Source: Primulina eburnea | Taxonomy: Eukaryota; Streptophyta; Magnoliopsida; Lamiales; Gesneriaceae | Assembly (NCBI RefSeq): GCF_022965805.1 | Contig: NW_027331436.1 | Location: 248,001 to 312,000 of the forward strand | Reading direction: 5' to 3' | Length of the DNA stretch: 64,000 bases | Shown: piece by piece, positions 3,233-64,000 of the stretch | Numbering within the stretch: position 1 is the first letter of the stretch | Layout: every line of letters begins with the position of its first letter | Position numbers and translations under genes: made by a program | The notes under the pieces: model-generated | Databases searched by the model: none | What the model was told of the DNA's origin: nothing | The model's input: only the letters and a program-made list of their open reading frames with translations

Positions 3233-3234
3233 AA

Positions 3235-4150: not shown

Positions 4151-4900
4151 ACATCCGTTTGGGGATGACAAGTAGTAGATTACAACAATATTGAGCAAAG
4201 TTTAGCCCATATAAGTTCGATTGACAACTTCAGTTTGTCCATCCGTTTGAGGATGACAAATAGTAGATTACAACAATATTGAGCAAAGTTTAGCCCATAA
4301 AATAATCCAAAAATAGAATCCCTCCCCTTCTTAGTCCTACGCAACCCCAGAATAAAGTGCATAGAAATGTCAATCCAAGTTCTTTTTAAGAATAGCACGC
4401 AAAAGTGTTCTCAAAGTTCTATTTACAACTTCAGTTTGTCCATCCGTTTGAGGATGACAAGTAGTAGATTACAACAATATTGAGCAAAGTTTAGCCCATA
4501 AAGTAATCCAAAAATAGAATCCCTCACCTTCTCAGTCCTAGGCAACCCCAAAATAAAGTGCATAGAAATGTCAATCCAAGTTCTTTTTAAGAATAGCACG
4601 CAAAAGTGTTCCCAAAGTTCTATTTACAACTTCAGTTTGTCCATCCGTTTGAGAATGACAAGTAGCAGATTACAACAATATTGAGCAAAGGTTAGGCCAT
4701 ATAAGTTCTTTGACAACTTCAGTTTTTCCATCCGTTTGAGGATGACAAGTAGTAGATTACAACAATATTGAGCAAAGTTTAGCCCATAAAGTAATCCAAA
4801 AATAGAATCCCTCCCCTTCTTAGTCCTAGGCAACCCCAAAATAAAGTGCATAGAAATGTTAATCCAAGTTCTTTTAAGAATAGCACGCACAAGTGTTCCC

Positions 4901-7900
4901 AAAGTTCTATTTACAACTTCAGTTTGTCCATCCGTTTGAGGATGACAAGTAGTAGATTACAACAATATTGAGCAAAGTTTAGCCCATAAAGTAATCCAAA
5001 AATAGAATCCCTCACCTTCTTAGTCCTAGGCAACCCCAAAATAAAGTCCACAGAAATGTCAGTCCAAGTTCTTTTAAGAATAGCACGCAAAAGTGTTCCC
5101 AAAGTTCTATTTACAACTTCAGTTTGTCCATCCGTTTGGGGATGACAAGTAGTAGATTACAACAATATTGAGCAAAGTTTAGCCCATAAAGTAATCCAAA
5201 AATAGAATCCCTCCCCTTCTTAGTCCTAGGCAACCCCAAAATAAAGTCCATAGAAATGTCAATCCAAGTTCTTTTTAAGAATAGCACGCACAAGTGTTCC
5301 CAAAGTTCTATTTACAACTTCAGTTTGTCCATCTGTTTGAGGATGACAAGTAGTAGATTACAACAATATTGAGCAAAGTTTAGCCCATAAAGTAATCCAA
5401 AAATAGAATCCCTCACCTTCTTAGTCCTAGGCAACCCCAAAATAAAGTGCATAGAAATGTCAGTCCAAGTTCTTTTAAGAATAGCACGCAAAAGTGTTCC
5501 CAAAGTTCTATTTACAACTTCAGTTTGTCCATCCGTTTGAGGATGACAAGTAGTAGATTACAACAATATGGAGCAAAGTTTAGCCCATAAAGTAATGCAA
5601 AAATAGAATCCCTCCCCTTCTTAGTCCTAGGCAACCCCAAAATAAAGTCCATAGAAATGTCAATCCAAGTTCTTTTAAGAATAGCACGCACAAGTGTTCC
5701 CAAAGTTCTATTTACAACTTCAGTTTGTCCATCCGTTTGGGGATGACAAGTAGTAGATTACAACAATATTGAGCAAAGTTTAGCCCATATAAGTTCTATT
5801 GACAACTTCAGTTTGTCCATCCGTTTGAGGATGAGAAGTAGTAGATTACAACAATATTGAGCAAAGTTTAGCCCATAAAGTAATCCAAAAATAGAATCCC
5901 TCCCCTTCTTAGTCCTAGGCAACCCCAGAATAAAGTCCATAGAAATGTCAATCCAAGTTCTTTTTAAGAATAGCACGCAAAAGTGTTCTCAAAGTTCTAT
6001 TTACAACTTCAGTTTGTCCATCCGTTTGAGGATGACAAGTAGTAGATTACAACAATATTGAGCAAAGTTTAGCCCATAAAGTAATCCAAAAATAGAATCC
6101 CTCACCTTCTCATTCCTAGGCAACCCCAAAATAAAGTGCATAGAAATGTGAATCCAAGTTCTTTTTAAGAATAGCACGCAAAAGTGTTCCCAAAGTTCTA
6201 TTTACAACTTCAGTTTGTCCATCCGTTTGAGAATGACAAGTAGTAGATTACAACAATATTGAGCAAAGGTTAAGCCATATAAGTTCTTTGACAACTTCAG
6301 TTTTTCCATCCGTTTGAGGATGACAAGTAGTAGATTACAACAATATTGAGCAAAGTTTAGCCCATAAAGTAATCCAAAAATAGAATCCCTCCCCTTCTTA
6401 GTCCTAGGCAACCCCAAAATAAAGTGCATAGAAATGTTAATCCAAGTTCTTTTAAGAATAGCACGCACAAGTGTTCCCAAAGTTCTATTTACAACTTCAG
6501 TTTGTCCATCCGTTTGAGGATGACAAGTAGTAGATTACAACAATATTGAGCAAAGTTTAGCCCATAAAGTAATCCAAAAATAGAATCCCTCACCTTCTTA
6601 GTCCTAGGCAACCCCAAAATAAAGTCCACAGAAATGTCAGTCCAAGTTCTTTTAAGAATAGCACGCAAAAGTGTTCCCAAAGTTCTATTTACAACTTCAG
6701 TTTGTCCATCCGTTTGGGGATGACAAGTAGTAGATTACAACAATATTGAGCAAAGTTTCGCCATATAAGTTCTATTGACAACCTCAGTTTGTCCATCCGT
6801 TTGAGGATGACAAATAGTAGATTACAACAATATTGAGCAAAGTTTAGCGCATAAAGTAATCCAAAAATAGAATCCCTCCCCTTCTTAGTCCTAGGCAACC
6901 CAAGAATAAAGTCCATAGAAATGTCAATCCAAGTTCTTTTTAAGAATAGCCCGCAAAAGTGTTCTCAAAGTTCTATTTACAACTTCAGTTTGTCCATCCG
7001 TTTGAGGATGACAAGTAGTAGATTACAACAATATTGAGCAAAGTTTAGCCCATAAAGTAATCCAAAAATAGAATCCCTCACCTTCTTAGTCCTAGGCAAC
7101 CCCAAAATAAAGTCCACAGAAATGTCAGTCCAAGTTCTTTTAAGAATAGCACGCAAAAGTGTTCCCAAAGTTCTATTTACAACTTCAGTTTGTCCATCCG
7201 TTTGGGGATGACAAGTAGTAGATTACAACAATATTGAGCAAAGTTTAGCCCATAAAGTAATCCAAAAATAGAATCCCTCCCCTTCTTAGTCCTAGGCAAC
7301 CCCAAAATAAAGTCCATAGAAATGTCAATCCAAGTTCTTTTTAAGAATAGCACGCACAAGTGTTCCCAAAGTTCTATTTACAACTTCAGTTTGTCCATCC
7401 GTTTGAGGATGACAAGTAGTAGATTACAACAATATTGAGCAAAGTTTAGCCCATAAAGTAATCCAAAAATAGAATCCCTCACCTTCTTAGTCCTAGGCAA
7501 CCCCAAAATAAAGTGCATAGAAATGTCAGTCCAAGTTCTTTTAAGAATAGCACGCAAAAGTGTTCCCAAAGTTCTATTTACAACTTCAGTTTGTCCATCC
7601 GTTTGAGGATGACAAGTAGTAGATTACAACAATATGGAGCAAAGTTTAGCCCATAAAGTAATGCAAAAATAGAATCCCTCCCCTTCTTAGTCCTAGGCAA
7701 CCCCAAAATAAAGTCCATAGAAATGTCAATCCAAGTTCTTTTAAGAATAGCACGCACAAGTGTTCCCAAAGTTCTATTTACAACTTCAGTTTGTCCATCC
7801 GTTTGGGGATGACAAGTAGTAGATTACAACAATATTGAGCAAAGTTTAGCCCATATAAGTTCTATTGACAACTTCAGTTTGTCCATCCGTTTGAGGATGA

Positions 7901-9032
7901 GAAGTAGTAGATTACAACAATATTGAGCAAAGTTTAGCCCATAAAGTAATCCAAAAATAGAATCCCTCCCCTTCTTAGTCCTAGGCAACCCCAGAATAAA
8001 GTCCATAGAAATGTCAATCCAAGTTCTTTTTAAGAATAGCACGCAAAAGTGTTCTCAAAGTTCTATTTACAACTTCAGTTTGTCCATCCGTTTGAGGATG
8101 ACAAGTAGTAGATTACAACAATATTGAGCAAAGTTTAGCCCATAAAGTAATCCAAAATAGAATCCCTCACCTTCTCATTCCTAGGCAACCCCAAAATAAA
8201 GTGCATAGAAATGTGAATCCAAGTTCTTTTTAAGAATAGCACGCAAAAGTGTTCCCAAAGTTCTATTTACAACTTCAGTTTGTCCATCCGTTTGAGAATG
8301 ACAAGTAGTAGATTACAACAATATTGAGCAAAGGTTAAGCCATATAAGTTCTTTGACAACTTCAGTTTTTCCATCCGTTGAGGATGACAAGTAGTAGATT
8401 ACAACAATATTGAGCAAAGTTTAGCCCATAAAGTAATCCAAAAATAGAATCCCTCCCCTTCTTAGTCCTAGGCAACCCCAAAATAAAGTGCATAGAAATG
8501 TTAATCCAAGTTCTTTTAAGAATAGCACGCACAAGTGTTCCCAAAGTTCTATTTACAACTTCAGTTTGTCCATCCGTTTGAGGATGACAAGTAGTAGATT
8601 ACAACAATATTGAGCAAAGTTTAGCCCATAAAGTAATCCAAAAATAGAATCCCTCACCTTCTTAGTCCTAGGCAACCCCAAAATAAAGTCCACAGAAATG
8701 TCAGTCCAAGTTCTTTTAAGAATAGCACGCAAAAGTGTTCCCAAAGTTCTATTTACAACTTCAGTTTGTCCATCCGTTTGGGGATGACAAGTAGTAGATT
8801 ACAACAATATTGAGCAAAGTTTCGCCATATAAGTTCTATTGACAACCTCAGTTTGTCCATCCGTTTGAGGATGACAAATAGTAGATTACAACAATATTGA
8901 GCAAAGTTTAGCGCATAAAGTAATCCAAAAATAGAATCCCTCCCCTTCTTAGTCCTAGGCAACCCAAGAATAAAGTCCATAGAAATGTCAATCCAAGTTC
9001 TTTTTAAGAATAGCCCGCAAAAGTGTTCTCAA
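4901..9032 (-). repeat. Two copies of a ~2066-bp higher-order repeat
   Basis: The monomer order starting at 4901 is repeated from 6967, at a constant offset of 2066 bp that drops to 2064 after small deletions in the second copy near 8150-8380. Diagnostic single-base variants, for example GTCCACAGAAATG and the ATGCAAAAATAG variant, recur at matching places. Beyond about 9032 the order diverges. Confidence 0.8.
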
Positions 9033-9230
9033 AGTTCTATTTACAACTTCAGTTTGTCCATCCGTTTGAGGATGACAAGTAGTAGATTACAACAATATTG
9101 AACAAAGTTTAGCCATAAAGTAATCCAAAAATAGAATCCCTCCCCTTCTTAGTCCTAGGCAACCCCAAAATAAAGTGCATAGAAATGTCAATCCAAGTTC
9201 TTTTTAAGAATAGCACGCAAAAGTGTTCCC

Positions 9231-12200
9231 AAAGTTCTATTTACAACTTCAGTTTGTCCATCCGTTTGAGGATGACAAGTTGTAGATTACAACTTTATTG
9301 TGCAAAGTTTAGCCCATAAAGTAATCCAAAAATAGAATCCCTTCCCTTCTTAGTCCTTGGCAACCCCAAAATAAAGTCCATAGAAATTTCAATCCAAGTT
9401 CTTTTTAAGAATAGCACGCAAAAGTGTTCCTAAAGTTCTATTGACAACTTCAGTTTGTCTATCCGTTTGAGGATGACAAGTAGTAGATTACAACAATATT
9501 GAGCAAAGTTTAGCCCATAAAGTAATCCAAAAATAGAATCCCTCCCCTTCTTAGTCCTAGGCAACCCAAGAATAAAGTCCATAGAAATGTCAATCCAAGT
9601 TCTTTTTAAGAATAGCACGCAAAAGTGTTCTCAAAGTTCTATTTACAACTTCAGTTTGTCCATCCGTTTGAGGATGACAAGTAGTAGATTACAACAATAT
9701 TGAGCAAAGTTTAGCCATAAAGTAATCCAAAAATAGAATCCCTCCCCTTCTTAGTCCTAGGAAACCCCAAAATAAAGTGCATAGAAATGTCAATCCAAGT
9801 TCTTTTTAAGAATAGCACGCAAAAGTGTTCCCAAAGTTCTATTTACAACTTCAGTTTGTCCATCCGTTTGAGGATGACAAGTTGTAGATTACAACTTTAT
9901 TGTGCAAAGTTTAGCCCATAAAGTAATCCAAAATAGAATCCCTCCCCTTCTTAGTCCTTGGCAACCCCAAAATAAAGTCCATAGAAATGTCAATCCAAGT
10001 TCTTTTTAAGAATAGCACGCAAAAGTGTTCCTAAAGTTCTATTGACAACTTCAGTTTGTCCATCCGTTTGAGGATGACAAGTAGTAGATTACAACAATAT
10101 TGAGCAAAGTTTAGCCCATAAAGTAATCCAAAAATAGAATCCCTCCCCTTCTTAGTCCTAGGCAACCCAAGAATAAAGTCCATAGAAATGTCAATCCAAG
10201 TTCTTTTTAAGAATAGCACGCAAAAGTGTTCTCAAAGTTCTATTTACAACTTCAGTTTGTCCATCCGTTTGAGGATGACAAGTAGTAGATTACAACAATA
10301 TTGAGCAAAGTTTAGCCATAAAGTAATCCAAAAATAGAATCCCTCCCCTTCTTAGTCCTAGGCAACCCCAAAATAAAGTGCATAGAAATGTCAATCCAAG
10401 TTCTTTTTAAGAATAGCACGCACAAGTGTTCCCAAAGTTCTATTTACAACTTCAGTTTGTCCATCCGTTTGAGGATGACAAATAGTAGATTACAACAATA
10501 TTGAGCAAAGTTTAGCCCATAAAGTAATCCAAAAATAGAATCCCTCACCTTCTTAATCCTAGGCAACCCCAAAATAAAGTGCATAGAAATGTCAGTCCAA
10601 GTTCTTTTAAGAATAGCACGCAAAAGTGTTCCCAAAGTTCTATTTACAACTTCAGTTTGTCCATCCGTTTGAGGATGACAAGTAGTAGATTACAACAATA
10701 TGGAGCAAAGTTTAGCCCATAAAGTAATGCAAAAATAGAATCCCTCCCCTTCTTAGTCCTAGGCAACCCCAAAATAAAGTCCATAGAAATGTCAATCCAA
10801 GTTCTTTTAAGAATAGCACGCACAAGTGTTCCCAAAGTTCTATTTACAACTTCAGTTTGTCCATCCGTTTGAGGATGACAAGTAGTAGATTACAACAATA
10901 TTGAGCAAAGTTTAGCCCATATAAGTTCTATTGACAACTTCAGTTTATCCATCCGTTTGAGGATGACAAGTAGTAGATTACAACAATATTGTGCAATGTT
11001 TAGCCCATAAAGTAATCCAAAAATAGAATCCCTCCCCTTCTTAGTCCTAGGCAACCCCAAAATAAAGTGCATAGAAATGTCAATCCAAGTTCTTTTTAAG
11101 AATAGCACGCACAAGTGTTTCCAATGTTCTATTTACAACTTCAGTTTGTCCATCCGTTTGAGGATGACAAGTAGTAGATTACAACAATATTGAACAAAGT
11201 TTAGCCCATAAAGTAATCTAAAAATAGAATCCCTCACCTTCTTAGTCCTAGGCAACCCCAAAATAAAGTACATAGAAATGTCAGTCCAAGTTCTTTTAAG
11301 AATAGCACGCAAAAGTGTTCCCAAAGTTCTATTTACAACTTCAGTTTGTCCATCCGTTTGAGGATGACAAGTAGTAGATTACAACAATATGGAGCAAAGT
11401 TTAGCCCATAAAGTAATGCAAAAATAGAATCCCTCCCCTTCTTAGTCCTAGGCAATCCCAAAATAAAGTCCATAGAAATGTCAATCCAAGTTCTTTTAAG
11501 AATAGCACGCACAAGTGTTCCCGAAGTTCTATTTACAACTTCAGTTTGTCCATCCGTTTGGGGATGACAAGTAGTAGATTACAACAATATTGAGCAAAGT
11601 TTAGCCCATATAAGTTCGATTGACAACTTCAGTTTGTCCATCCGTTTGAGGATGACAAATAGTAGATTACAACAATATTGAGCAAAGTTTAGCCCATAAA
11701 GTAAACCAAAAATAGAATCCCTCCCCTTCTTAGTCCTAGGCAACCCCTGAATAAAGTGCATAGAAATGTCAATCCAAGTTCTTTTTAAGAATAGCACGCA
11801 AAAGTGTTCTCAAAGTTCTATTTACAACTTCAGTTTGTCCATCCGTTTGAGGATGACAAGTAGTAGATTACAACAATATTGAGCAAAGTTTAGCCCATAA
11901 AGTAATCCAAAAATAGAATCCCTCACCTTCTCAGTCCTAGGCAACCCCAAAATAAAGTGCATAGAAATGTCAATCCAAGTTCTTTTTAAGAATAGCACGC
12001 AAAAGTGTTCCCAAAGTTCTATTTACAACTTCAGTTTGTCCATCCGTTTGAGAATGACAAGTAGCAGATTACAACAATATTGAGCAAAGGTTAGGCCATA
12101 TAAGTTCTTTGACAACTTCAGTTTTTCCATCCGTTTGAGGATGACAAGTAGTAGATTACAACAATATTGAGCAAAGTTTAGCCCATAAAGTAATCCAAAA

Positions 12201-13420
12201 ATAGAATCCCTCCCCTTCTTAGTCCTAGGCAACCCCAAAATAAAGTGCATAGAAATGTTAATCCAAGTTCTTTTAAGAATAGCACGCACAAGTGTTCCCA
12301 AAGTTCTATTTACAACTTCAGTTTGTCCATCCGTTTGAGGATGACAAGTAGTAGATTACAACAATATTGAGCAAAGTTTAGCCCATAAAGTAATCCAAAA
12401 ATAGAATCCCTCACCTTCTTAGTCCTAGGCAACCCCAAAATAAAGTCCACAGAAATGTCAGTCCAAGTTCTTTTAAGAATAGCACGCAAAAGTGTTCCCA
12501 AAGTTCTATTTACAACTTCAGTTTGTCCATCCGTTTGGGGATGACAAGTAGTAGATTACAACAATATTGAGCAAAGTTTAGCCCATAAAGTAATGCAAAA
12601 ATAGAATCCCTCCCCTTCTTAGTCCTAGGCAACCCCAAAATAAAGTCCATAGAAATGTCAATCCAAGTTCTTTTAAGAATAGCACGCACAAGTGTTCCCA
12701 AAGTTTTATTTACAACTTCAGTTTGTCCATCCGTTTGAGGATGACAAGTAGTAGATTACAACAATATTGAGCAATGTTTAGCCCATAAAGTAATCCAAAA
12801 ATAGAATCCCTCCCCTTCTTAGTCCTAGGCAACCCCAAAATAAAGTGCATAGAAATGTCAATCCAAGTTCTTTTTAAGAATAGCACGCACAAGTGTTCCC
12901 AAAGTTCTATTTACAACTTCAGTTTGTCCATCCGTTTGAGGATGACAAGTAGTAGATTACAACAATATTGAGCAAAGTTTAGCCCATAAAGTAATCCAAA
13001 AATAGAATCCCTCACCTTCTTAGTCCTAGGCAACCCCAAAATAAAGTGCATAGAAATGTCAGTCCAAGTTCTTTTAAGAATAGCACGCAAAAGTGTTCCC
13101 AAAGTTTTATTTACAACTTCAGTTTGTCCATCCGTTTGAGGATGACAAGTAGTAGATTACAACAATATGGAGCAAAGTTTAGCCCATAAAGTAATGCAAA
13201 AATAGAATCCCTCCCCTTCTTAGTCCTAGGCAACCCCAAAATAAAGTCCAAAGAAATGTCAGTCCAAGTTCTTTTAAGAATAGCACGCACAAGTGTTCCC
13301 AAAGTTCTATTTACAACTTCAGTTTGTCCATCCGTTTGGGGATGACAAGTAGTAGATTACAACAATATTGAGCAAAGTTTAGCCCATATAAGTTCTATTG
13401 ACAACTTCAGTTTGTCCATC
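9231..13420 (-). repeat. ~4.2-kb segmental duplication, copy 1 (partner 15220-19410)
   Basis: Monomers here match those about 5990 bp to the right in order and in private variants (for example TCGATTGACAAC at 11616, AACCCCTGAATAAAG at 11744 and GTAGCAGATTAC at 12061). The solo LTR entered at the right end of this copy; the partner lacks it. Confidence 0.85.
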
Positions 13421-13430
13421 CGTTTGAGGA

Positions 13431-13435
13431 TAACA
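13431..13435. repeat. Target-site duplication, left copy (TAACA)
   Basis: TAACA directly precedes the TGTAGT end of the solo LTR and is repeated at 14861-14865. An uninterrupted paralogous site, GAGGATAACAAGTAGTAG, is present at 19504-19521 and shows the sequence before insertion. Confidence 0.9.
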
Positions 13436-13556
13436 TGTAGTAGCCCGAATCCCAAATTGGGTAATTAACGGAGTAATGGTGATTAAGAAGGTTTAATGTG
13501 TAATTTTGACCGAGTCATGATCGGACGGTCCGAAGATGGTTCAGAAGCACCGAAGA

Positions 13557-13806
13557 GTTCGGAAGGTCCGAAGTGAGTTCGGTGGATCCGATCATTAGGT
13601 GTCAAGAGTTGATCGACACGTGGGAGTTCGGACGGTCCGAAGTGAGTTCGGTGGATCCGAACATGAGGTGTCAAGAGAAGCTGGACACGTGCATGTTCGG
13701 ACGGTCCGAAGTGTATGATCGGAGGATCCGATCATGAGCTGTCAAGAGCCAATGGACACGTAGCGTTCGGACGTTCCGAAGTGATGTTCGGAGGATCCGA
13801 ACATGG
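13557..13806 (+). promoter_or_regulatory. U3 tandem repeats with G-box cores in the solo LTR
   Basis: Units start at 13557, 13626, 13695 and 13765 (69, 69 and 70 bp; the last is partial). Each begins with GTTCGGA-x-GGTCCGAA or a one-base variant, a palindrome, then a second box GGTGGATCCGA or GGAGGATCCGA, then GTCAAGAG and a GACACGT core. Perfect G-boxes CACGTG lie at 13617-13622 and 13686-13691, with the variant CACGTA at 13757-13762. Such ACGT cores are bound by plant bZIP/bHLH factors, so a stress- or hormone-responsive LTR promoter is a fair inference. Confidence 0.8.
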
Positions 13807-13808
13807 CC

Positions 13809-13816
13809 TATAAATA
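13809..13816 (+). promoter_or_regulatory. TATA box of the solo LTR
   Basis: TATAAATA lies just after the last U3 repeat, about 373 bp from the LTR start. Transcription would then begin near 13840 and run rightwards into minus-oriented satellite, giving antisense satellite RNA if active. Confidence 0.7.
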
Positions 13817-14280
13817 GTGCTCGGATTTCTCATTTGTGACTTGCCATTCCTTGAGTTAAGTCTCCTCTTTGAGAGTTTTGGAAGGATTCTAGGGCTAGTT
13901 GTTGTTCGAGCGATAGCCAAGAGCTGCCGGGATTGGTAGCATAGCAGCGCCGGAGTTTCGAGGCAATCGACATCAAAGGGCTGTCGACGGACGAAGGTAA
14001 ACCCTAAACCTTTGGTAGTACTAGGGAGTACTGGTTTTGCTAGCCGAGCATGGTAGTATTGTTCATTGGGTATGCTTTTGATGAATAGGCTTGGATTAGA
14101 CCTGTTGTCTGGTTGTTCCAGTGGATTAGGATTGCAGTGATAGAGGTACGAAAGTACTATCCGAGATATCCTGGTTGAGTATACATTCTTATATGTGTTG
14201 CATGATTATGTGGTGCATTGATATATGTCATATGATGCATGCTATTATGTCACGTTTATTACTGCACGTTGCATTTCATG

Positions 14281-14338
14281 TTGAGCCGTATCTTCTTCGA
14301 GATAGCCTTTACTGTTGAGCTGTATCTCTTTCGAGATA
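14281..14338 (+). repeat. 34-bp direct repeat with small hairpins in the solo LTR
   Basis: TTGAGCCGTATCTTCTTCGA at 14281 and TTGAGCTGTATCTCTTTCGA at 14315 start two imperfect copies. Each contains TATCT and AGATA arms a few bases apart that can pair. No known function. Confidence 0.55.
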
Positions 14339-14860
14339 AGCTATATCTTGGGGCCGCTCAGCCCTGTCTTGTGGACGCATGGACACCGAGAGTACACAGT
14401 GGCCGACGGGTCGGGAGGGCTTCGGTGGTCCGGGACATTTTAGGTCCACGTCTGTCTTGTAGTGGATGCAGTGACCCAGAGGTTGGACCGCGCGGCACTA
14501 TCCACTTGGCGCCTCTAGACTGAGCAGTTTGAGATCCTTTGTGATTCCTGTTTCTTGACTACCCCGGTATCATGATCATAGCATGTGCATTTCATATAGG
14601 TCTGTATACTCATACTTTTGTACTGGGCGTTCTTATCGCTCACGTCCTCGGTTTTGTTTATTCTTGGACACCCCATTCCCACGGGGCAGGCCTCAGGTTG
14701 GACAGCTCAGGAGGAGCAGGAGGAGGACGTGAGTATCTGGTTGGTTTAGTTTATCGCTATTGTTGTTGACTTTTTCCGCTGTTATCTCTGATTATTGTTT
14801 ATTAGGCTAATTGCATGCTTAGTTTTTGATTAGTAGGTGATTCTGGAACGGGTCACTACA

Positions 14861-14865
14861 TAACA
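14861..14865. repeat. Target-site duplication, right copy (TAACA)
   Basis: TAACA directly follows the ACTACA end of the solo LTR and matches 13431-13435; satellite sequence resumes at once with AGTAGTAGATTAC. Confidence 0.9.
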
Positions 14866-17800
14866 AGTAGTAGATTACAACAATATTGAGCAAAGTTTAG
14901 CCCATAAAGTAATCCAAAAATAGAATCCCTCCCCTTTTTAGTCCTAGGCAACCCCAGAATAAAGTCCATAGAAATGTCAATCCAAGTTCTTTTTAAGAAT
15001 AGCACGCAAAAGTGTTCTCAAAGTTCTATTTACAACTTCAGTTTGTCCATCCGTTTGAGGATGACAAGTAGTAGATTACAACAATATTGAGCAAAGTTTA
15101 GCCCATAAAGTAATCCAAAAATAGAATCCCTCACCTTCTTAGTCCTAGGCAACCCCAAAATAAAGTGCATAGAAATGTCAGTCCAAGTTCTTTTAAGAAT
15201 AGCACGCAAAAGTGTTCCCAAAGTTCTATTTAAAACTTCAGTTTGTCCATCCGTTTGAGGATGACAAGTTGTAGATTACAACTTTATTGTGCAAAGTTTA
15301 GCCCATAAAGTAATCCAAAAATAGAATCCCCTCCCCTTCTTAGTCCTTGGCAACCCCAAAATAAAGTCCATAGAAATGTCAATCCAAGTTCTTTTTAAGA
15401 ATAGCACGCAAAAGTGTTCCTAAAGTTCTATTGACAACTTCAGTTTGTCCATCCGTTTGAGGATGACAAGTAGTAGATTACAACAATATTGAGCAAAGTT
15501 TAGCCCATAAAGTAATCCAAAAATAGAATCCCTCCCCTTCTTAGTCCTAGGCAACCCAAGAATAAAGTCCATAGAAATGTCAATCCAAGTTCTTTTTAAG
15601 AATAGCACGCAAAAGTGTTCTCAAAGTTCTATTTACAACTTCAGTTTGTCCATCCGTTTGAGGATGACAAGTAGTAGATTACAACAATATTGAGCAAAGT
15701 TTAGCCATAAAGTAATCCAAAAATAGAATCCCTCCCCTTCTTAGTCCTAGGAAACCCCAAAATAAAGTGCATAGAAATGTCAATCCAAGTTCTTTTTAAG
15801 AATAGCACGCAAAAGTGTTCCCAAAGTTCTATTTACAACTTCAGTTTGTCCATCCGTTTGAGGATGACAAGTTGTAGATTACAACTTTATTGTGCAAAGT
15901 TTAGCCCATAAAGTAATCCAAAAATAGAATCCCTCCCCTTCTTAGTCCTTGGCAACCCCAAAATAAAGTCCATAGAAATGTCAATCCAAGTTCTTTTTAA
16001 GAATAGCACGCAAAAGTGTTCCTAAAGTTCTATTGACAACTTCAGTTTGTCCATCCGTTTGAGGATGACAAGTAGTAGATTACAACAATATTGAGCAAAG
16101 TTTAGCCCATAAAGTAATCCAAAAATAGAATCCCTCCCCTTCTTAGTCCTAGGCAACCCAAGAATAAAGTACATAGAAATGTCAATCCAAGTTCTTTTTA
16201 AGAATAGCACGCAAAAGTGTTCTCAAAGTTCTATTTACAACTTCAGTTTGTCCATCCGTTTGAGGATGACAAGTAGTAGATTACAACAATATTGAGCAAA
16301 GTTTAGCCATAAAGTAATCCAAAAATAGAATCCCTCCCCTTCTTAGTCCTAGGCAACCCCAAAATAAAGTGCATAGAAATGTCAATCCAAGTTCTTTTTA
16401 AGAATAGCACGCACAAGTGTTCCCAAAGTTCTATTTACAACTTCAGTTTGTCCATCCGTTTGAGGATGACAAGTAGTAGATTACAACAATATTGAGCAAA
16501 GTTTAGCCCATAAAGTAATCCAAAAATAGAATCCCTCACCTTCTTAGTCCTAGGCAACCCAAAATAAAGTGCATAGAAATGTCAGTCCAAGTTCTTTTAA
16601 GAATAGCACGCAAAAGTGTTCCCAAAGTTCTATTTACAACTTCAGTTTGTCCATCCGTTTGAGGATGACAAGTAGTAGATTACAACAATATGGAGCAAAG
16701 TTTAGCCCATAAAGTAATGCAAAAATAGAATCCCTCCCCTTCTTAGTCCTAGGCAACCCCATAATAAAGTCCATAGAAATGTCAATCCAAGTTCTTTTAA
16801 GAATAGCACGCACAAGTGTTCCCAAAGTTCTATTTACAACTTCAGTTTGTCCATCCGTTTGAGGATGACAAGTAGTAGATTACAACAATATTGAGCAAAG
16901 TTTAGCCCATATAAGTTCTATTGACAACTTCAGTTTGTCCATCCGTTTGAGGATGACAAGTAGTAGATTACAACAATATTGAGCAATGTTTAGCCCATAA
17001 AGTAATCCAAAAATAGAATCCCTCCCCTTCTTAGTCCTAGGCAACCCCAAAATAAAGTGCATAGAAATGTCAATCCAAGTTCTTTTTAAGAATAGCACGC
17101 ACAAGTGTTCCCAAAGTTCTATTTACAACTTCAGTTTGTCCATCCGTTTGAGGATGACAAGTAGTAGATTACAACAATATTGAACAAAGTTTAGCCCATA
17201 AAGTAATTTAAAAATAGAATCCCTCACCTTCTTAGTCCTAGGCAACCCCAAAATAAAGTACATAGAAATGTCAGTCCAAGTTCTTTTAAGAATAGCACGC
17301 AAAAGTGTTCCCAAAGTTCTATTTACAACTTCAGTTTGTCCATCCGTTTGAGGATGACAAGTAGTAGATTACAACAATATGGAGCAAAGTTTAGCCCATA
17401 AAGTAATGCAAAAATAGAATCCCTCCCCTTCTTAGTCCTAGGCAATCCCAAAATAAAGTCCATAGAAATGTCAATCCAAGTTCTTTTAAGAATAGCACGC
17501 ACAAGTGTTCCCAAAGTTCTATTTACAACTTCAGTTTGTCCATCCGTTTGGGGATGACAAGTAGTAGATTACAACAATATTGAGCAAAGTTTAGCCCATA
17601 TAAGTTCGATTGACAACTTCAGTTTGTCCATCCGTTTGAGGATGACAAATAGTAGATTACAACAATATTGAGCAAAGTTTAGCCCATAAAGTAAACCAAA
17701 AATAGAATCCCTCCCCTTCTTAGTCCTAGGCAACCCCTGAATAAAGTGCATAGAAATGTCAATCCAAGTTCTTTTTAAGAATAGCACGCAAAAGTGTTCT

Positions 17801-52629: not shown

Positions 52630-55310
52630 CTATTTGTCATCCTCAAACGGATGGACAAACTGAAGTTGTCAATAGAACTTTAGGAACACTTTTGCGTGCT
52701 ATTCTTAAAAAGAACTTGGATTGACATTTCTATGGACTTTATTTTGGGGTTGCCAATGACTAAGAAGGGGAGGGATTCTATTTTTGGATTACTTTATGGC
52801 TAAACTTTGCTCAATATTGTTGTAATCTACTACTTGTCATCCTCAAACAGATGGACAAACTGAAGTTGTAAATAGAACTTTGGGAACACTTTTGCGTGCT
52901 ATTCTTAAAAAGAACTTGGATTGACATTTCTATGGACTTTATTTTGGGGTTGCCTAGGACTAAGAAGGGGAGGGATTCTATTTTTGGATTACTTTATGGG
53001 CTAAACTTTGCACAATAAAGTTGTAATCTACAACTTGTCATCCTCAAACGGATGGACAAACTGAAGTTGTAAATAGAACTTTGGGAACACTTTTGCGTGC
53101 TATTCTTAAAAAGAACTTGGATTGACATTTCTATGCACTTTATTTTGGGGTTGCCTAGGACTAAGAAGGGGAGGAATTCTATTTTTGGATTACTTTATGG
53201 CTAAACTTTGCTCAATATTGTTGTAATCTACTACTTGTCATCCTCAAACGGATGGACAAACTGAAGTTGTAAATAGAACTTTGAGAACACTTTTGCGTGC
53301 TATTCTTAAAAAGAACTTGGATTGACATTTCTATGGACTTTATTCTTGGGTTGCCTAGGACTAAGAAGGGGAGGGATTCTATTTTTGGATTACTTTATGG
53401 ACTAAACTTTGCTCAATATTGTTGTAATCTACTATTTGTCATCCTCAAACGGATGGACAAACTGAAGTTGTCAATAGAACTTATATGGGCTAAACTTTGC
53501 TCAATATTGTTGTAATCTACTACTTGTCATCCCCAAACGGATGGACAAACTGAAGTTGTAAATAGAACTTTGGGAACACTTTTGCGTGCTATTCTTAAAA
53601 GAACTTGGACTGACATTTCTGTGGACTTTATTTTGGGGTTGCCTAGGACTAAGAAGGTAAGGGATTCTATTTTTGGATTACTTTATGGGCTAAACTTTGC
53701 TCAATATTGTTGTAATCTACTACTTGTCATCCCCAAACGGATGGACAAACTGAAGTTGTAAATAGAACTTTGGGAACACTTGTGCGTGCTATTCTTAAAA
53801 GAACTTGGATTGACATTTCTATGCACTTTATTTTGGGGTTGCCAAGGACTAAGAAGGGGAGGGATTCTATTTTTGGATTACTTTATGGGCTAAACTTTAA
53901 TCCATATTGTTGTAATCTACTACTTGTCATCCTCAAACGGATGGACAAACTGAAGTTGTAAATAGAACTTTGGGAACACTTTTGCGTGCTATTCTTAAAA
54001 GAACTTGGCCTGACATTTCTGTGGACTTTATTTTGGGGTTGCCTAGGACTAAGAAGGTGAGGGATTCTTTTTTGGATTACTTTATGGGCTAAACTTTGCT
54101 CAATATTGTTGTAATCTACTACTTGTCATCCTCAAACGGATGGACAAACTGAAGTTGTAAATAGAACTTTGGGAACACTTGTGCGTGCTATTCTTAAAAG
54201 AACTTGGATTCACATTTCTATGCACTTTATTTTGGGGTTGCCTAGGACTAAGAAGGGGAGGGATTCTATTTTTGGATTACTTTATGGGCTAAACTTTGCT
54301 CAATATTGTTGTAATCTACTACTTGTCATCCTCAAACGGATGGAAAAACTGAAGTTGTCAATAGAACTTATATGGCCTAACCTTTGCTCAATATTGTTGT
54401 AATCTACTACTTGTCATTCTCAAACGGATGGACAAACTGAAGTTGTAAATAGAACTTTGGGAACACTTTTGCGTGCTATTCTTAAAAAGAACTTGGATTG
54501 ACATTTCTATGGACTTTATTTTGGGGTTGCCTAGGACTAAGAAGGGGAGGGATTCTATTTTTGGATTACTTTATGGGCTAAACTTTGCTCAATATTGTTG
54601 TAATCTACAATTTGTCATCCTCAAACGGATGGACAAACTGAAGTTGTCAATAGAACTTATATGGGCTAAACTTTGCTCAATATTGTTGTAATCTACTACT
54701 TGTCATCCCCAAACAGATGGACAAACTGAAGTTGTAAATAGAACTTTGGGAACACTTGTGCGTGCTATTCTTAAAAGAACTTGGATTGACATTTCTATGG
54801 ACTTTATTTTGGGGTTGCCTAGGACTAAGAAGGGGAGGGATTCTATTTTTGCATTACTTTATGGGCTAAACTTTGCTCCATATTGTTGTAATGTACTACT
54901 TGTCATCCTCAAACGGATGGACAAACTGAATTTGTAAATAGAACTTTGGAAACACTTTTGCGTGCTATTCTTAAAAGAACTTGGACTGACATTTCTGTGG
55001 ACTTTATTTTGGGGTTGCCTAGGACTAATAAGGTGAGGGATTCTATTTTTGGATTACTTTATGGGCTAAACTTTGCTCAATATTGTTGTAATCTACTACT
55101 TGTCATCCTCAAACGGATGGACAAACTGAAGTTGTAAATAGAACTTTGGGAACACTTTTGCGTGCTATTCTTAAAAAGAACTTGGATTGACATTTCTATG
55201 GACTTTATTTTGGGGTTGCCAATGACTAAGAAGGGGAGGGATTCTATTTTTGGATTACTTTATGGCTAAACTTTGCTCAATATTGTTGTAATCTACTACT
55301 TGTCATCCTC
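52630..55310 (+). repeat. Higher-order segment, copy of 46030-48700
   Basis: Offset 6605-6606 bp. Shared variants: TTATGGACTAAAC (53396 versus 46790), GGGAGGAATTC (53169 versus 46563) and CTACAATTTGTC (54605 versus 48000). Followed by a stretch matching 51.1-52.5 kb at an offset of 4043 bp. Confidence 0.78.
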
Positions 55311-58300
55311 AAACGGATGGACAAACTGAAGTTGTAAATAGAACTTTGGGAACACTTTTGCGTGCTATTCTTAAAAAGAACTTGGATTGACATTTCTATG
55401 GACTTTATTTTGGGGTTGCCTAGGACTAAGAAGGGGAGGGATTCTATTTTTGGATTACTTTATGGGCTAAACTTTGCACAATAAAGTTGTAATCTACAAC
55501 TTGTCATCCTCAAACGGATGGACAAACTGAAGTTGTAAATAGAACTTTGGGAACACTTTTGCGTGCTATTCTTAAAAAGAACTTGGATTGACATTTCTAT
55601 GCACTTTATTTTGGGGTTGCCTAGGACTAAGAAGGGGAGGGATTCTATTTTTGGATTACTTTATGGCTAAACTTTGCTCAATATTGTTGTAATCTACTAC
55701 TTGTCATCCTCAAACGGATGGACAAACTGAAGTTGTAAATAGAACTTTGAGAACACTTTTGCGTGCTATTCTTAAAAAGAACTTGGATTGACATTTCTAT
55801 GGACTTTATTCTTGGGTTGCCTAGGACTAAGAAGGGGAGGGATTCTATTTTTGGATTACTTTATGGGCTAAACTTTGCTCAATATTGTTGTAATCTACTA
55901 TTTGTCATCCTCAAACGGATGGACAAACTGAAGTTGTCAATAGAACTTATATGGGCTAAACTTTGCTCAATATTGTTGTAATCTACTACTTGTCATCCCC
56001 AAACGGATGGACAAACTGAAGTTGTAAATAGAACTTTGGGAACACTTTTGCGTGCTATTCTTAAAAGAACTTGGACTGACATTTCTGTGGACTTTATTTT
56101 GGGGTTGCCTAGGACTAAGAAGGTAAGGGATTCTATTTTTGGATTACTTTATGTGCTAAACTTTGCTCAATATTGTTGTAATCTACTACTTGTCATCCTC
56201 AAACGGATGGACAAACTGAAGTTGTAAATAGAACTTTGGGAACACTTGTGCGTGCTATTCTTAAAAGAACTTGGATTAACATTTCTATGCACTTTATTTT
56301 GGGGTTGCCTAGGACTAAGAAGGGGAGGGATTCTATTTTTGGATTACTTTATGGGCTAAACTTTGCTCAACATTGTTGTAATCTACTACTTGTCATCCTC
56401 AAACGGATGGAAAAACTGAAGTTGTCAAAGAACTTATATGGCCTAACCTTTGCTCAATATTGTTGTAATCTACTACTTGTCATTCTCAAACGGATGGACA
56501 AACTGAAGTTGTAAATAGAACTTTGGGAACACTTTTGCGTGCTATTCTTAAAAAGAACTTGGATTGACATTTTTATGCACTTTATTTTGGGGTTGCCTAG
56601 GACTGAGAAGGTGAGGGATTCTATTTTTGGATTACTTTATGGGCTAAACTTTGCTCAATATTGTTGTAATCTACTTCTTGTCATCCTCAAACGGATGGAC
56701 AAACTGAAGTTGTAATAGAACTTTGAGAACACTTTTGCGTGCTATTCTTAAAAAGAACTTGGATTGACATTTCTATGGACTTTATTCTGGGGTTGCCTAG
56801 GACTAAGAATGGGAGGGATTCTATTTTTGGATTACTTTATGGGCTAAACTTTGCACAATATTGTTGTAATCTACTACTTGTCATCCTCAAACGGATGGAA
56901 AAACTGAAGTTGTCAATAGAACTTATATGGCCTAACCTTTGCTCAATATTGTTGTAATTTACTACTTGTCATTCTCAAACGGATGGACAAACTGAAGTTG
57001 TAAATAGAACTTTGGGAACACTTTTGCGTGCTATTCTTAAAAAGAACTTGGATTGACATTTCTATGCACTTTATTTTGGGGTTGCCTAGGACTGAGAAGG
57101 GGAGGGATTCTATTTATGGATTACTTTATGGGCTAAACTTTGTTCAATATTGTTGTAATCTACTACTTGTCATCCTCAAACAGATGGACAAACTGAAGTT
57201 GTCAATAGAACTTTGGGAACACTTTTGCGTGCTATTCTTAAAAGAAGGGGAGGGATTCTATTTTCGGATTACTTTATGGGCTAAACTTTGCTCAATATTG
57301 TTGTAATCTACTACTTGTCATCCCCAAACGGATGGACAAACTGAAATTGTAAATAGAACTTTGGGAACACTTGTGCGTGCTATTCTTAAAAGAACTTGGA
57401 TTGACATTTCTATGCACTTTATTTTGGGGTTGCCTAGGACTAAGAAGGGGAGGGATTCTATTTTTGGATTACTTTATGGGCTAAACTTTAATCCATATTG
57501 TTGTAATCTACTACTTGTCATCCTCAAACGGATGGACAAACTGAAGTTGTCAATAGAACTTTGGGAACACTTTTGCGTGCTATTCTTAAAAGAAGGGGAG
57601 GGATTCTATTTTCGGATTACTTTATGGGCTAAACTTTGCTCAATATTGTTGTAATCTACTACTTGTCATCCCCAAACGGATGGACAAACTGAAGTTGTAA
57701 ATAGAACTTTAGGAACACTTGTGCGTGCTATTCTTAAAAGAACTTGGATTGACATTTCTATGCACTTTATTTTGGGGTTGCCAAGGACTAAGAAGGGGAG
57801 GGATTCTATTTTTGGATTACTTTATGGGCTAAACTTTAATCCATATTGTTGTAATCTACTACTTGTCATCCTCAAACGGATGGACAAACTGAAGTTGTAA
57901 ATAGAACTTTGGGAACACTTTTGCGTGCTATTCTTAAAAGAACTTGGACTGATATTTCTATGGACTTTATTTTAGGGTTGCCTAGGACTAAGAAGGTGAG
58001 GGATTCTATTTTTGGATTACTTTATAGGCTAAACTTTGCTCAATATTGTTGTAATCTACTACTTTTCATCCTCAAACGGAAGGACAAACTGAAGTTGTCA
58101 ATAGAACTTTGGGAACACTTTTGCGTGCTATTCTTACAAAGAACTTGGATTGACATTTCTATGGACTTTATTTTGGGGTTGACAAGGACTAAGAAGGGGA
58201 GGGATTCTATTTTTGGATTACTTTATGGCTAAACTTTGCTCAATATTGTTGTAATCTACTACTTGTCATCCTCAAACAGATTGACAAACTGAAGTTGTAA

Positions 58301-61300
58301 ATTGAACTTTGGGAACACTTTTGCGTGCTATTCTTAAAAAGAACTTGGATTGACATTTCTATGGACTTTATTCTGGGGTTGCCTAGGACTAAGAAGGGGA
58401 GGGATTCTATTTTTAGATTACTTTATGGGCTAAACTTTGCTCAATATTGTTGTAATCTACTACTTGTCATCCTCAAACGGATGGACAAACTGAAGTTGTA
58501 AATAGAACTTTGGGAACACTTTTGCGTGCTATTCTTAAAAGAACTTGGACTGACATTTCTATGGACTTTATTTTGGGGTTGCCTAGGACTAAGAAGGGGA
58601 GGGATTCTATTTTTGGATTACTTTATGGGCTAAACTTTGCTCAATATTGTTGTAATCTACTATTTGTCATCCTCAAACGGATGGACAAACTGAAGTTGTC
58701 AATAGAACTTTAGGAACACTTTTGCGTGCTATTCTTAAAAAGAACTTGGATTGACATTTCTATGGACTTTATTTTGGGGTTGCCAATGACTAAGAAGGGG
58801 AGGGATTCTATTTTTGGATTACTTTATGGCTAAACTTTGCTCAATATTGTTGTAATCTACTACTTGTCATCCTCAAACAGATGGACAAACTGAAGTTGTA
58901 AATAGAACTTTGGGAACACTTTTGCGTGCTATTCTTAAAAGAACTTGGATTGACATTTCTATGGACTTTATTTTGGGGTTGCCTAGGACTAAGAAGGGGA
59001 GGGATTCTATTTTTGGATTACTTTATGGGCTAAACTTTGCACAATAAAGTTGTAATCTACAACTTGTCATCCTCAAACGGATGGACAAACTGAAGTTGTA
59101 AATAGAACTTTGGGAACACTTTTGCGTGCTATTCTTAAAAAGAACTTGGATTGACATTTCTATGCACTTTATTTTGGGGTTGCCTAGGACTAAGAAGGGG
59201 AGGAATTCTATTTTTGGATTACTTTATGGCTAAACTTTGCTCAATATTGTTGTAATCTACTACTTGTCATCCTCAAACGGATGGACAAACTGAAGTTGTA
59301 AATAGAACTTTGAGAACACTTTTGCGTGCTATTCTTAAAAAGAACTTGGATTGACATTTCTATGGACTTTATTCTTGGGTTGCCTAGGACTAAGAAGGGG
59401 AGGGATTCTATTTTTGGATTACTTTATGGACTAAACTTTGCTCAATATTGTTGTAATCTACTATTTGTCATCCTCAAACGGATGGACAAACTGAAGTTGT
59501 CAATAGAACTTATATGGGCTAAACTTTGCTCAATATTGTTGTAATCTACTACTTGTCATCCCCAAACGGATGGACAAACTGAAGTTGTAAATAGAACTTT
59601 GGGAACACTTTTGCGTGCTATTCTTAAAAGAACTTGGACTGACATTTCTGTGGACTTTATTTTGGGGTTGCCTAGGACTAAGAAGGTAAGGGATTCTATT
59701 TTTGGATTACTTTATGGGCTAAACTTTGCTCAATATTGTTGTAATCTACTACTTGTCATCCTCAAACGGATGGACAAACTGAAGTTGTAAATAGAACTTT
59801 GGGAACACTTGTGCGTGCTATTCTTAAAAGAACTTGGATTAACATTTCTATGCACTTTATTTTGGGGTTGCCTAGGACTAAGAAGGGGAGGGATTCTATT
59901 TTTGGATTACTTTATGGGCTAAACTTTGCTCAACATTGTTGTAATCTACTACTTGTCATCCTCAAACGGATGGAAAAACTGAAGTTGTCAAAGAACTTAT
60001 ATGGCCTAACCTTTGCTCAATATTGTTGTAATCTACTACTTGTCATTCTCAAACGGATGGACAAACTGAAGTTGTAAATAGAACTTTGGGAAAACTTTTG
60101 CGTGCTATTCTTAAAAAGAACTTGGATTGACATTTCTATGCACTTTATTTTGGGGTTGCCTAGGACTGAGAAGATGAGGGATTCTATTTTTGGATTACTT
60201 TATGGGCTAAACTTTGCTCAATATTGTTGTAATCTACTACTTGTCATCCTCAAACGGATGGACAAACTGAAGTTGTAAATAGAACTTTGAGAACACTTTT
60301 GCGTGCTATTCTTAAAAAGAACTTGGATTGACATTTCTATGGACTTTATTCTGGGGTTGCCTAGGACTAAGAAGGGAGGGATTCTATTTTTGGATTACTT
60401 TATGGGCTAAACTTTGCTCAATATTGTTGTAATCTACTATTTGTTATTCTCAAACGGATGGACAAACTGAAGTTGTCAATAGAACTTATATGGGCTAAAC
60501 TTTGCTCAATATTGTTGTAATCTACTACTTGTCATCCCCAAACGGATGGACAAACTGAAGTTGTAAATAGAACTTTGGGAACACTTGTGCGTGCTATTCT
60601 TAAAAGAACTTGGATTGACATTTCTATGGACTTTATTTTGGGGTTGCCTAGGACTAAGAAGGGGAGGGATTCTATTTTTGCATTACTTTATGGGCTAAAC
60701 TTTGCTCCATATTGTTGTAATCTACTACTTGTCATCCCCAAACGGATGGACAAACTGAAGTTGTAAATAGAACTTTGGGAACACTTTTGCGTGCTATTCT
60801 TAAAAGAACTTGGACTGACATTTCTATGCACTTTATTTTGGGGTTGCCTAGGACTAAGAAGGTGAGGGATTCTATTTTTGGATTACTTTATGGGCTAAAC
60901 TTTGCTCAATATTGTTGTAATCTACTACTTGTCATCCTCAAACGGATGGACAAACTGAAGTTGTAAATAGAACTTTGGGAACACTTGTGCGTGCTATTCT
61001 TAAAAAGAACTTGGATTGACATTTCTATGCACTTTATTTTGGGGTTGCCTAGGACTAAGAAGGGGAGGGATTCTATTTTTGGATTACTTTATGGGCTAAA
61101 CATTGCTCAATATTGTTGTAATCTACTACTTGTCATCCTCAAACGGATGGACAAACTGAAGTTGTCAATAGAACTTATATGGGCTAAACTTTGCTCAATA
61201 TTGTTGTAATCTACTACTTGTCATCCCCAAACGGATGGACAAACTGAAGTTGTAAATAGAACTTTGGGAACACTTGTGCGTCCTATTCTTAAAAAGAACT

Positions 61301-61768
61301 TGGATTGACATTTCTATGCACTTTATTTTGAGGTTGCCTAGGACTAAGAAGGGGAGGGATTCTATTTTTGGATTACTTTATGGCCTAACTTTTCTCCATA
61401 TTGTTGTAATCTACTACTTGTCATCCTCAAACGGATGGACAAACTGAAGTTGTCAATAGAACTTTGGGAACACTTTTGCGTGCTATTCTTAAAAAGAACT
61501 TGGATTGACATTTCTATGGACTTTATTTTGGGGTTGCCTAGGACTAAGAAGGGGAGGGATTCTATTTTTGGATTACTTTATGGGCTAAACTTTGCTCAAT
61601 ATTGTTGTAATCTACTACTTGTCATCCTCAAACGGATGGAAAAACTGAAGTTGTCAATAGAACTTATATGGCCTAACCTTTGCTCAATATTGTTGTAATT
61701 TACTACTTGTCATTCTCAAACGGATGGACAAACTGAAGTTGTAAATAGAACTTTGGGAACACTTTTGC

Positions 61769-63480
61769 GTGCTATTCTTAAAAAGAACTTGGATTGACAT
61801 TTCTATGCACTTTATTTTGGGGTTGCCTAGGACTGAGAAGGGGAGGGATTCTATTTTTGGATTACTTTATGGGCTAAACTTTGTTCAATATTGTTGTAAT
61901 CTACTACTTGTCATCCTCAAACAGATGGACAAACTGAAGTTGTCAATAGAACTTTGGGAACACTTTTGCGTGCTATTCTTAAAAGAAGGGGAGGGATTCT
62001 ATTTTCGGATTACTTTATGGGCTAAACTTTGCTCAATATTGTTGTAATCTACTACTTGTCATCCCCAAAAGGATGGACAAACTGAAGTTGTAAATAGAAC
62101 TTTGGGAACACTTGTGCGTGCTATTCTTAAAAGAACTTGGATTGACATTTCTATGCACTTTATTTTGGGGTTGCCTAGGACTAAGAAGGGGAGGGATTCT
62201 ATTTTTGGATTACTTTATGGGCTAAACTTTAATCCATATTGTTGTAATCTACTACTTGTCATCCTCAAACGGATGGACAAACTGAAGTTGTCAATAGAAC
62301 TTTGGGAACACTTTTGCGTGCTATTCTTAAAAGAAGGGGAGGGATTCTATTTTCGGATTACTTTATGGGCTAAACTTTGCTCAATATTGTTGTAATCTAC
62401 TACTTGTCATCCCCAAACGGATGGACAAACTGAAGTTGTAAATAGAACTTTAGGAACACTTGTGCGTGCTATTTTTAAAAGAACTTGGATTGACATTTCT
62501 ATGCACTTTATTTTGGGGTTGCCAAGGACTAAGAAGGGGAGGGATTCTATTTTTGGATTACTTTATGGGCTAAACTTTAATCCATATTGTTGTAATCTAC
62601 TACTTGTCATCCTCAAACGGATGGACAAACTGAAGTTGTAAATAGAACTTTGGGAACACTTTTGCGTGCTATTCTTAAAAGAACTTGGACTGATATTTCT
62701 ATGGACTTTATTTTAGGGTTGCCTAGGACTAAGAAGGTGAGAAATTCTATTTTTGGATTACTTTATAGGCTAAACTTTGCTCAATATTGTTGTAATCTAC
62801 TACTTTTCATCCTCAAACGGAAGGACAAACTGAAGTTGTCAATAGAACTTTGGGAACACTTTTGCGTGCTATTCTTACAAAGAACTTGGATTGACATTTC
62901 TATGGACTTTATTTTGGGGTTGACAAGGACTAAGAAGGGGAGGGATTCTATTTTTGGATTACTTTATGGCTAAACTTTGCTCAATATTGTTGTAATCTAC
63001 TACTTGTCATCCTCAAACAGATTGACAAACTGAAGTTGTAAATTGAACTTTGGGAACACTTTTGCGTGCTATTCATAAAAAGAACTTGGATTGACATTTC
63101 TATGGACTTTATTCTGGGGTTGCCTAGGACTAAGAAGGGGAGGGATTCTATTTTTAGATTACTTTATGGGCTAAACTTTGCTCAATATTGTTGTAATCTA
63201 CTACTTGTCATCCTCAAACGGATGGACAAACTGAAGTTGTAAATAGAACTTTGGGAACACTTTTGCGTGCTATTCTTAAAAGAACTTGGACTGACATTTC
63301 TATGGACTTTATTTTGGGGTTGCCTAGAACTAAGAAGGTGAGGGATTCTATTTTTGGATTACTTTATGGGCTAAACTTTGCTCAATATTGTTGTAATCTA
63401 CTACTTGTCATCCTCAAACGGATGGACAAACTGAAGTTGTCAATAGAACTTTGGGAACACTTTTGCGTGCTATTCTTAAA
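61769..63480 (+). repeat. Higher-order segment, copy of 57028-58740
   Basis: Offset 4741 bp. The TTTATAGGCTAAAC and TTCTTACAAAGAAC monomers reappear at 62763 and 62872, with a few new private changes (GTGAGAAATTC at 62738, TTCATAAAAAG at 63072). Confidence 0.78.
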
Positions 63481-64000
63481 AAGAACTTGGATTGACATTT
63501 CTATGCACTTTATTTTGGGGTTGCCTAGGACTAAGAAGGGGAGGGATTCTATTTTTGAATTACTTTATGGGCTAAACTTTGCACAATAAAGTTGTAATCT
63601 ACAACTTGTCATCCTCAAACGGATGGACAAACTGAAGTTGTAAATAGAACTTTGGGAACACTTTTGCGTGCTATTCTTAAAAAGAACTTGGATTGACATA
63701 TCTATGCACTTTATTGTGGGGTTGCCTAGGACTAAGAAGGGGAGGGATTCTATTTTTGGATTACTTTATGTGCTAAACTTTGCTCAATATTGTTGTAATC
63801 TACTACTTGTCATCCTCAAACGGATGGACAAACTGAAGTTGTAAATAGAACTTTGAGAACACTTTTGCGTGCTATTCTTAAAAAGAACTTGGATTGACAT
63901 TTCTATGGACTTTATTCTGGGGTTGCCTAGGACTAAGAAGGGGAGGGATTCTATTTTTGGATTACTTTATGGGCTAAACTTTGCTCAATATTGTTGTAAT

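Follow-up and report, generated by a model that had tools for sequence, protein, structure and literature searches.

The stretch of DNA analysed here, referred to as the window, comprises 64,000 nucleotides of a Primulina eburnea contig (NW_027331436.1, positions 248,001 to 312,000) and contains a satellite array spanning position 4152 to the window end (64000), which is preceded by part of a Ty3/gypsy retrotransposon and interrupted by an insertion resembling a solo long terminal repeat (LTR) (Table 1). A fuzzy anchor scan found 335 anchor copies (given by sense in Table 1) and yielded 332 clean units, namely 249 long monomers of 199-202 bp, 71 units of 86-88 bp and 12 units of 148 bp; one interval of 1518 bp, which contains the solo LTR, was excluded from this set. 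The long monomers showed a mean identity of 97.3% to their consensus and a mean pairwise difference of 4.1%, and with its 332 clean units the locus has the form of a transposon-derived satellite, that is, a long tandem array of near-identical monomers. The original prediction had described a head-to-tail array of about 58 kb; the length holds, as the satellite DNA totals approximately 58.4 kb once the 1425-bp solo LTR is subtracted, but the single run is replaced by two opposed arms that meet at 21656/21657. As set out below, we consider it highly probable (roughly 0.87) that the satellite is the multiplied remnant of an integrase catalytic core from a CRM-like Ty3/gypsy retrotransposon of the Primulina lineage.

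Table 1. Features of the window; coordinates are counted from its first nucleotide. ORF, open reading frame; TSD, target-site duplication.
Feature	Coordinates	Strand	Description
Ty3/gypsy gag-pol ORF, 5′ part	1..2610	-	gag, CCHC, protease and start of reverse transcriptase; continues past window edge; integrase outside window
Primer binding site	3221..3232	-	TGGTATCAGAGC
5′ LTR, 917 bp	3235..4151	-	begins TGATG, ends TATCA
Satellite arm 1	4152..21656	-	sense strand minus; 91 anchors; interrupted by solo LTR
Solo-LTR-like insertion, 1425 bp	13436..14860		TGTAGTAGCC...CACTACA; perfect 5-bp TSD TAACA at 13431-13435 and 14861-14865
Inversion junction of arms	21656..21657		antisense copies left, sense copies right; skew flip
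Satellite arm 2	21657..64000	+	sense strand plus; 244 anchors; continues past window end
Example 201-bp monomer	21917..22117	+	W codon to W codon
Piece A of example monomer	21917..21986	+	23 residues including first catalytic Asp
Fusion point	21979..21986	+	TATTTTTG; frame A, SIF(V); frame B, YFW; microhomology of at most 8 nt
Piece B of example monomer	21979..22119	+	includes final catalytic Glu; in-frame TAA
Example 88-bp unit	22397..22484	+	monomer minus net 113 bp; piece A and end of piece B lost
148-bp unit stretch	33447..33746	+	monomer minus 53 bp (52 against the 200-bp type); joint with AAGAA microhomology

The 201-bp consensus carries two stretches of an integrase core, piece A (23 residues) in one reading frame and piece B, which starts YFWIT, in another. 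The residues of the DDE triad have well-established catalytic roles. By alignment of the integrase core with the Ty3 integrase (PDB 7q5b, E 4.9e-43) and with the retroviral integrase chains 3dlr and 2x6n, these residues correspond to the Asp of SMDF, the first Asp of VSDRD and the Glu of GQTE. The monomer retains the regions of the first Asp and the final Glu, as had been predicted from its motifs, and the middle Asp is gone. The spacing from the start of SMDF to the start of HPQ was 91 residues (273 bp) in 103 of the 106 fetched relatives with a single core, and the two pieces are accordingly not neighbours in intact relatives, a point on which the predicted chimera could have failed. The other three relatives have spacings of 62 (P0075), 48 (P0106) and 79 (P0142) residues; they were considered as deleted relatives of the monomer and rejected, their gaps lying elsewhere. 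Since the same distance in the monomer is 110 bp against 273 bp, the net loss amounts to 163 bp, which is not a multiple of three; where 60 or more residues including the middle Asp had been expected to be missing, the loss of that Asp is confirmed and the size is corrected to a net 54.3 codons. Because pieces A and B sit in different reading frames, no chimeric enzyme is encoded.

The source of the two pieces was sought among relatives fetched from three protein searches (best 120 of 1957, all 82, and best 120 of 4904 matches). Among the 141 fetched proteins with both pieces, the best relatives were all from Primulina, i.e., P0101 with 64 of 70 residues, P0003 with 63 of 70 and P0028 with 61 of 70, followed by a next value of 59. 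A tblastn comparison of the whole of P0003 with the array gave 398 high-scoring segment pairs, the best of them with 109 bits (E 9.5e-27), whereas 20 mononucleotide shuffles of a 4-kb array piece reached at most 21.9 bits. The query ranges of the P0003 segment pairs all begin at about residue 900 or later, which is integrase, and P0001, a relative that ends before the core, had no match to the array by tblastn; for neither of these two proteins, therefore, does a segment outside the integrase match the array in this comparison. Homology of the monomer to a mobile element is thus found both in the 64 of 70 residues shared with a Primulina integrase and by tblastn, and the predicted monomer of about 200 bp joining two stretches of an integrase core stands. 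We also observed that P0203, P0204, P0208, P0213 and other plant gene models carry at least two integrase cores and score above the query's self-score of 470 bits; these may represent elements that are fused or nested, or else genuine tandem duplications of the integrase, and P0203 and P0208 are probably fused or nested models.

The fusion of the two pieces can be read directly in the monomer, whose sequence across the fusion is GATTCTATTTTTGGATTACTTTATGG. Frame A reads D-S-I-F, as in RDSIFVVV of the intact core, and frame B reads Y-F-W-I-T-L-W against Y-F-W-K-T-L-W; since TATTTTTG gives the correct reading in both frames, it belongs to both sides of the fusion. Its left copy is observed, and in the right parent copy six of the eight bases are forced by the Tyr-Phe-Trp codons, the remaining two being third positions. 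At a random junction of the same composition, the chance of sharing at least 8 nt is 0.0002 and of sharing at least 6 nt is 0.0024. The junction therefore suggests as a first step that an integrase copy would have lost net 163 bp between the first-Asp region and the region before the final Glu, through template slippage or a deletion mediated by the microhomology of TATTTTTG. At the tandem joint (...AAGAACTTGGATTGAC...), AAC TTG (K-K-N-L) is followed by TGG ATT GAC (W-I-D) and the TTG is common to both, the overlap being CTTG if the parent Pro codon was CCT. In a second step, to which this joint points, the segment from W (PW|IDISMDF) to L (KKNL) would have been duplicated head to tail across the 3-4 nt (C)TTG; however, as at least 3 shared bases are expected at a random junction with a probability of 0.066 and at least 4 with 0.022, the tandem joint taken by itself is weak evidence. 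In the 148-bp class the deletion lies between CTTAAAAAGAA and ACTAAGAAGGGG, which share AAGAA, and the joint of the 88-bp class is not a clean microhomology. On the whole, the junctions look like products of microhomology-mediated deletion or slippage.

Alternatively, each piece could derive from a different copy of the element, recombination or a template switch in the course of reverse transcription having brought the two together. Template switching within the particle also uses short homologies, which counts in favour of this origin, and piece A fits P0101 (22 of 23 residues) slightly better than P0003 (21 of 23), with piece B equal for both (42 of 47). Nevertheless, the closest relatives are the same for the two pieces, which line up in order along one core, and a deletion within one copy is simpler, so that we regard an origin from two copies as unlikely. 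A further question is whether the deletion preceded the amplification, because a stretch of about 364 bp of integrase might have been duplicated first, one unit then losing 163 bp and taking over by homogenisation. Such a takeover has a parallel in the array itself, where the 88- and 148-bp deletion units did spread by co-amplification. An undeleted unit would be about 364 bp long, however, and none of the 332 units falls between 300 and 420 bp; moreover, one fusion string, in its 12 commonest forms, is carried by 243 of the 249 long monomers. Duplication before deletion thus appears quite improbable, and deletion before amplification, as originally proposed, is the simplest order, since no unit of undeleted length occurs among the 332 and a single microhomology deletion at TATTTTTG explains the fusion.

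With deletion of the core followed by tandem amplification as the preferred reading, the unit classes and blocks of the array indicate how it grew. The Val codon of the 249 long monomers is GTA in 218, GTC in 19 and unreadable in 12. Among the 71 units of 88 bp this codon is readable in 69, every one of which has GTC, as do all 12 units of 148 bp. Since all readable members carry GTC, each short class fits one origin from the minority GTC type. The 88-bp class was also considered as the ancestral unit and rejected, as its readable members all carry the minority GTC variant and have lost piece A. Block comparisons (identity threshold of 97%, best 26 rows per comparison) showed a duplication of 28277-34460 as 34457-40643 with 99.86% identity over 6187 bp; the other listed plus-arm blocks of at least 2.5 kb match at about 98 to 99.6%, and the listed blocks between the arms at 97.1 to 98.4%. 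These patterns are as expected from unequal exchange or conversion, and they show a third step in which the 201-bp unit grew by duplication of multi-monomer blocks, with one inversion within the window and with the 88- and 148-bp deletion classes arising and being co-amplified in higher-order blocks.

The inversion separates arms that match closely near the joint (98.4% between 21158-21656 of arm 1 and 21984-22482 of arm 2), and it could be either real or an assembly joint. The joint is abrupt, without a spacer, and the arms make up an imperfect hairpin, 0.5-0.8 kb long and matching at 95-98%, whose loops measure approximately 75 to 330 bp. On either side of the joint (21600-22060), and again near 15270, lies a monomer of divergent type (GCACAATAAAGTTGTAATCTACAAC and the reverse complement of this string).

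We then consider the coding potential of the array, for which variants present in at least two long monomers were counted. By codon position these numbered 13/5/11 in piece A and 18/17/16 in piece B, and the ratio of synonymous to nonsynonymous variants was 8:21 (A) and 12:39 (B) against possible changes of 40:158 and 88:290, or 20:60 against 128:448 when pooled. A TAA stop lies between LL and STTCH and its strict pattern was found in 313 of the 332 units, the functional TTC in none. The array is non-coding and drifting without visible constraint. The codon of the first Asp does not encode Asp in 109 of the 249 long monomers (103 CAC, 3 TAC, 2 GAA and 1 CTC), and the original prediction is corrected in this respect. 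The GAC to CAC change (Asp to His, consensus column 141, 103 of 249) is the commonest listed single-base variant of the long monomers and marks a major subtype. The Glu codon is retained in all 249 long units, and this retention is read as chance because there is no wider constraint. That the array is a living part of an element or encodes a functional repeated peptide is very improbable: some units do restore the local frame and give ORFs of 107-112 amino acids (four listed), but the pieces lie in different frames of the consensus, stops are near-universal, variation in piece B has no codon-position bias, and among the 82 protein matches to the satellite ORF loose junction patterns pick out P0121 alone, an integrase that carries a frameshift but not the deletion.

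The element at the left edge of the window bears on the lineage and location of the array. Its gag-pol fragment is an open ORF of 870 amino acids, with Pfam RVT_1, Retrotrans_gag and zf-CCHC above cut-off and Asp_protease_2 below, and it is 99.0% identical to P0003 of P. eburnea over 523 amino acids; two segments of P0014 from the same species match at 98.5 and 98.4%. The primer binding site is one which we take to be of the tRNA-Met type. An ORF at 3758-4151 within the LTR continues the C-terminus of the integrase, 122 of 128 residues being identical to the P0014 C-terminus. Degenerate short repeats (ACGGACCCCGTG / GGTCCGTGTA) occupy 3690-3960 of the LTR, mostly inside this ORF. In the passages of PMC3059260 on which we draw, the LTRs of most CRM elements have the ends TGATG...T/CATCA, and integrase coding reaches into the 3′ LTR in CRM group A, every tested member of which is centromeric (PMC3059260). 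The flanking element (1-4151) has the LTR ends TGATGCGAAC... and ...CATATCA, and its integrase coding extends into the LTR, as seen in the 5′ LTR (the 3′ LTR lies outside the window); it may also resemble the CRM clade in the CR motif. Because its LTR abuts array sequence at 4152, the satellite was the site into which this element inserted, the target duplication on its other side lying beyond the window. A (peri)centromeric location of the array is probable, and structural heterochromatin would be its likeliest role. When the solo LTR is removed, a tandem duplication of 5142 bp with a period of 4561 bp spans the insertion site, and the solo-LTR insertion is therefore younger than that duplication. 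At first a block duplication seemed to end exactly at the two edges of the solo LTR, but this apparent coincidence disappeared on comparison with the empty site. In a fourth step, then, the solo LTR inserted after one block duplication, and an element of the same lineage into the array at 4152.

Several points weigh against the reading of the satellite as a deleted and amplified CRM-like integrase core. P0003 is labelled LOW QUALITY PROTEIN by its source, and several of the relatives are gene models that probably contain false introns. Of the six positions at which the monomer differs from P0101, five are clustered in a 13-residue stretch of piece B (K replaced by I at the fusion; G, T and K by C, S and I; F by a stop). 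A plain deletion does not account for this cluster; the changes may have arisen by drift before the amplification, or a diverged copy may have contributed a patch. The microhomology lengths given above are best taken as upper bounds, since the parent side is read from protein only. Variants in piece A are low at the second codon position (5 against 13 and 11), although there are only 29 of them and we do not read numbers this small as constraint. The stop is not in every unit, as among the first 10 listed misses of the strict pattern 8 still have TAA and 2 have TTA. The flanking element is the sole basis for a centromeric position. Finally, no progenitor copy or start monomer attached to an element was found within the window.

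The relatives were also screened for such a progenitor. P0002 was considered as a middle-deleted copy and rejected, because its gap after DSIFVVVD extends as far as SYSPFEIV, so that the whole of piece B, which the monomer keeps, is missing; the gaps in sibling gene models of P0002 resemble false introns. The search with the satellite ORF (82 matches) gave no protein with the fused junction by the patterns tried, among candidates of 0.55-1.75 times the query's 112 residues, a range that excludes a progenitor of polyprotein size, and a deleted copy ranked below the best 120 of 4904 matches would fall outside the scope of the third search.

We compared the satellite with published systems, in each case as far as the cited passages describe them. 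The maize satellites CRM1TR and CRM4TR come from the LTR-untranslated region (UTR) of centromeric retrotransposons, and their formation has been explained by gene conversion together with illegitimate recombination (Sharma et al. 2013, PMC3648361). The Primulina satellite resembles them in deriving wholly from a centromeric-type Ty3/gypsy element, in its proposed birth by illegitimate recombination at short homologies and subsequent growth through conversion, and in its later invasion by retrotransposons; it differs in that its monomer comes not from the LTR-UTR region but from the integrase catalytic core, with an internal deletion. Since it derives from the integrase core, it arose like CRM1TR and CRM4TR yet is not one of them. 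The Chenopodium satellite CficCl-61-40, whose source was a tnp2 transposase domain shortened by deletion (Belyayev et al. 2020, PMC7320549), likewise goes back to a conserved enzyme domain of a mobile element through deletion, but its monomer of approximately 40 bp is one fragment of a CACTA transposase, whereas the 201-bp Primulina monomer unites two separated integrase pieces. Most of the studied Lathyrus satellites come from repeats in the 3′ UTR of Ogre elements (PMC7004042) and share an LTR-retrotransposon origin, differing in that they start from pre-existing short tandem repeats. A 250-bp wheat/rye repeat similar to Cereba gag and the potato centromeric satellites (both cited in PMC3648361) are instances of retrotransposon-related or coding DNA becoming a centromeric satellite, as proposed here, with gag or with monomers of 979 bp to 5.4 kb in place of a fused integrase core. 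In sugarcane, some centromeric repeats resemble CRM gag-pol, but the one repeat that the passages describe as confirmed to be in tandem is Ss1, which is not among these (PMC5278356).

Among the matches listed from the open-licence literature, we found none that describes a satellite formed from an integrase core lacking its middle, and no paper on Primulina, Gesneriaceae or integrase-derived satellites that deals with this one. The route of satellite birth is already known, and this instance of it is new, unusually clear and well resolved; the birth had been called unusual, which holds in part, as satellites from a transposase domain (PMC7320549) and from centromeric retrotransposons (PMC3648361) have been published. 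The first step of satellite birth is usually erased. In this case, the high conservation of the parental enzyme core allows both breakpoints to be placed within a few bases by protein alignment alone, and a single array displays three junctions at which short strings are shared, namely the fusion, the tandem joint and that of the 148-bp class. The satellite indicates that coding DNA of a CRM-type element, and not only its LTR or UTR repeats, can seed a roughly nucleosome-sized monomer, and it opens a possible renewal of satellites by centromeric retrotransposons to testing in a concrete case. Taking the array and its flanking element together, we tentatively raise the rather doubtful possibility that this is a centromeric satellite built from the integrase gene of a centromere-targeting retrotransposon whose lineage is still inserting, so that the element would have built the chromatin it now targets, and that the opposed arms could yield double-stranded RNA matching the integrase and help to silence the element. 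The solo LTR, for its part, carries internal tandem repeats rich in TTCGGA/GGATCCGAA (TRF, 13521-13805).

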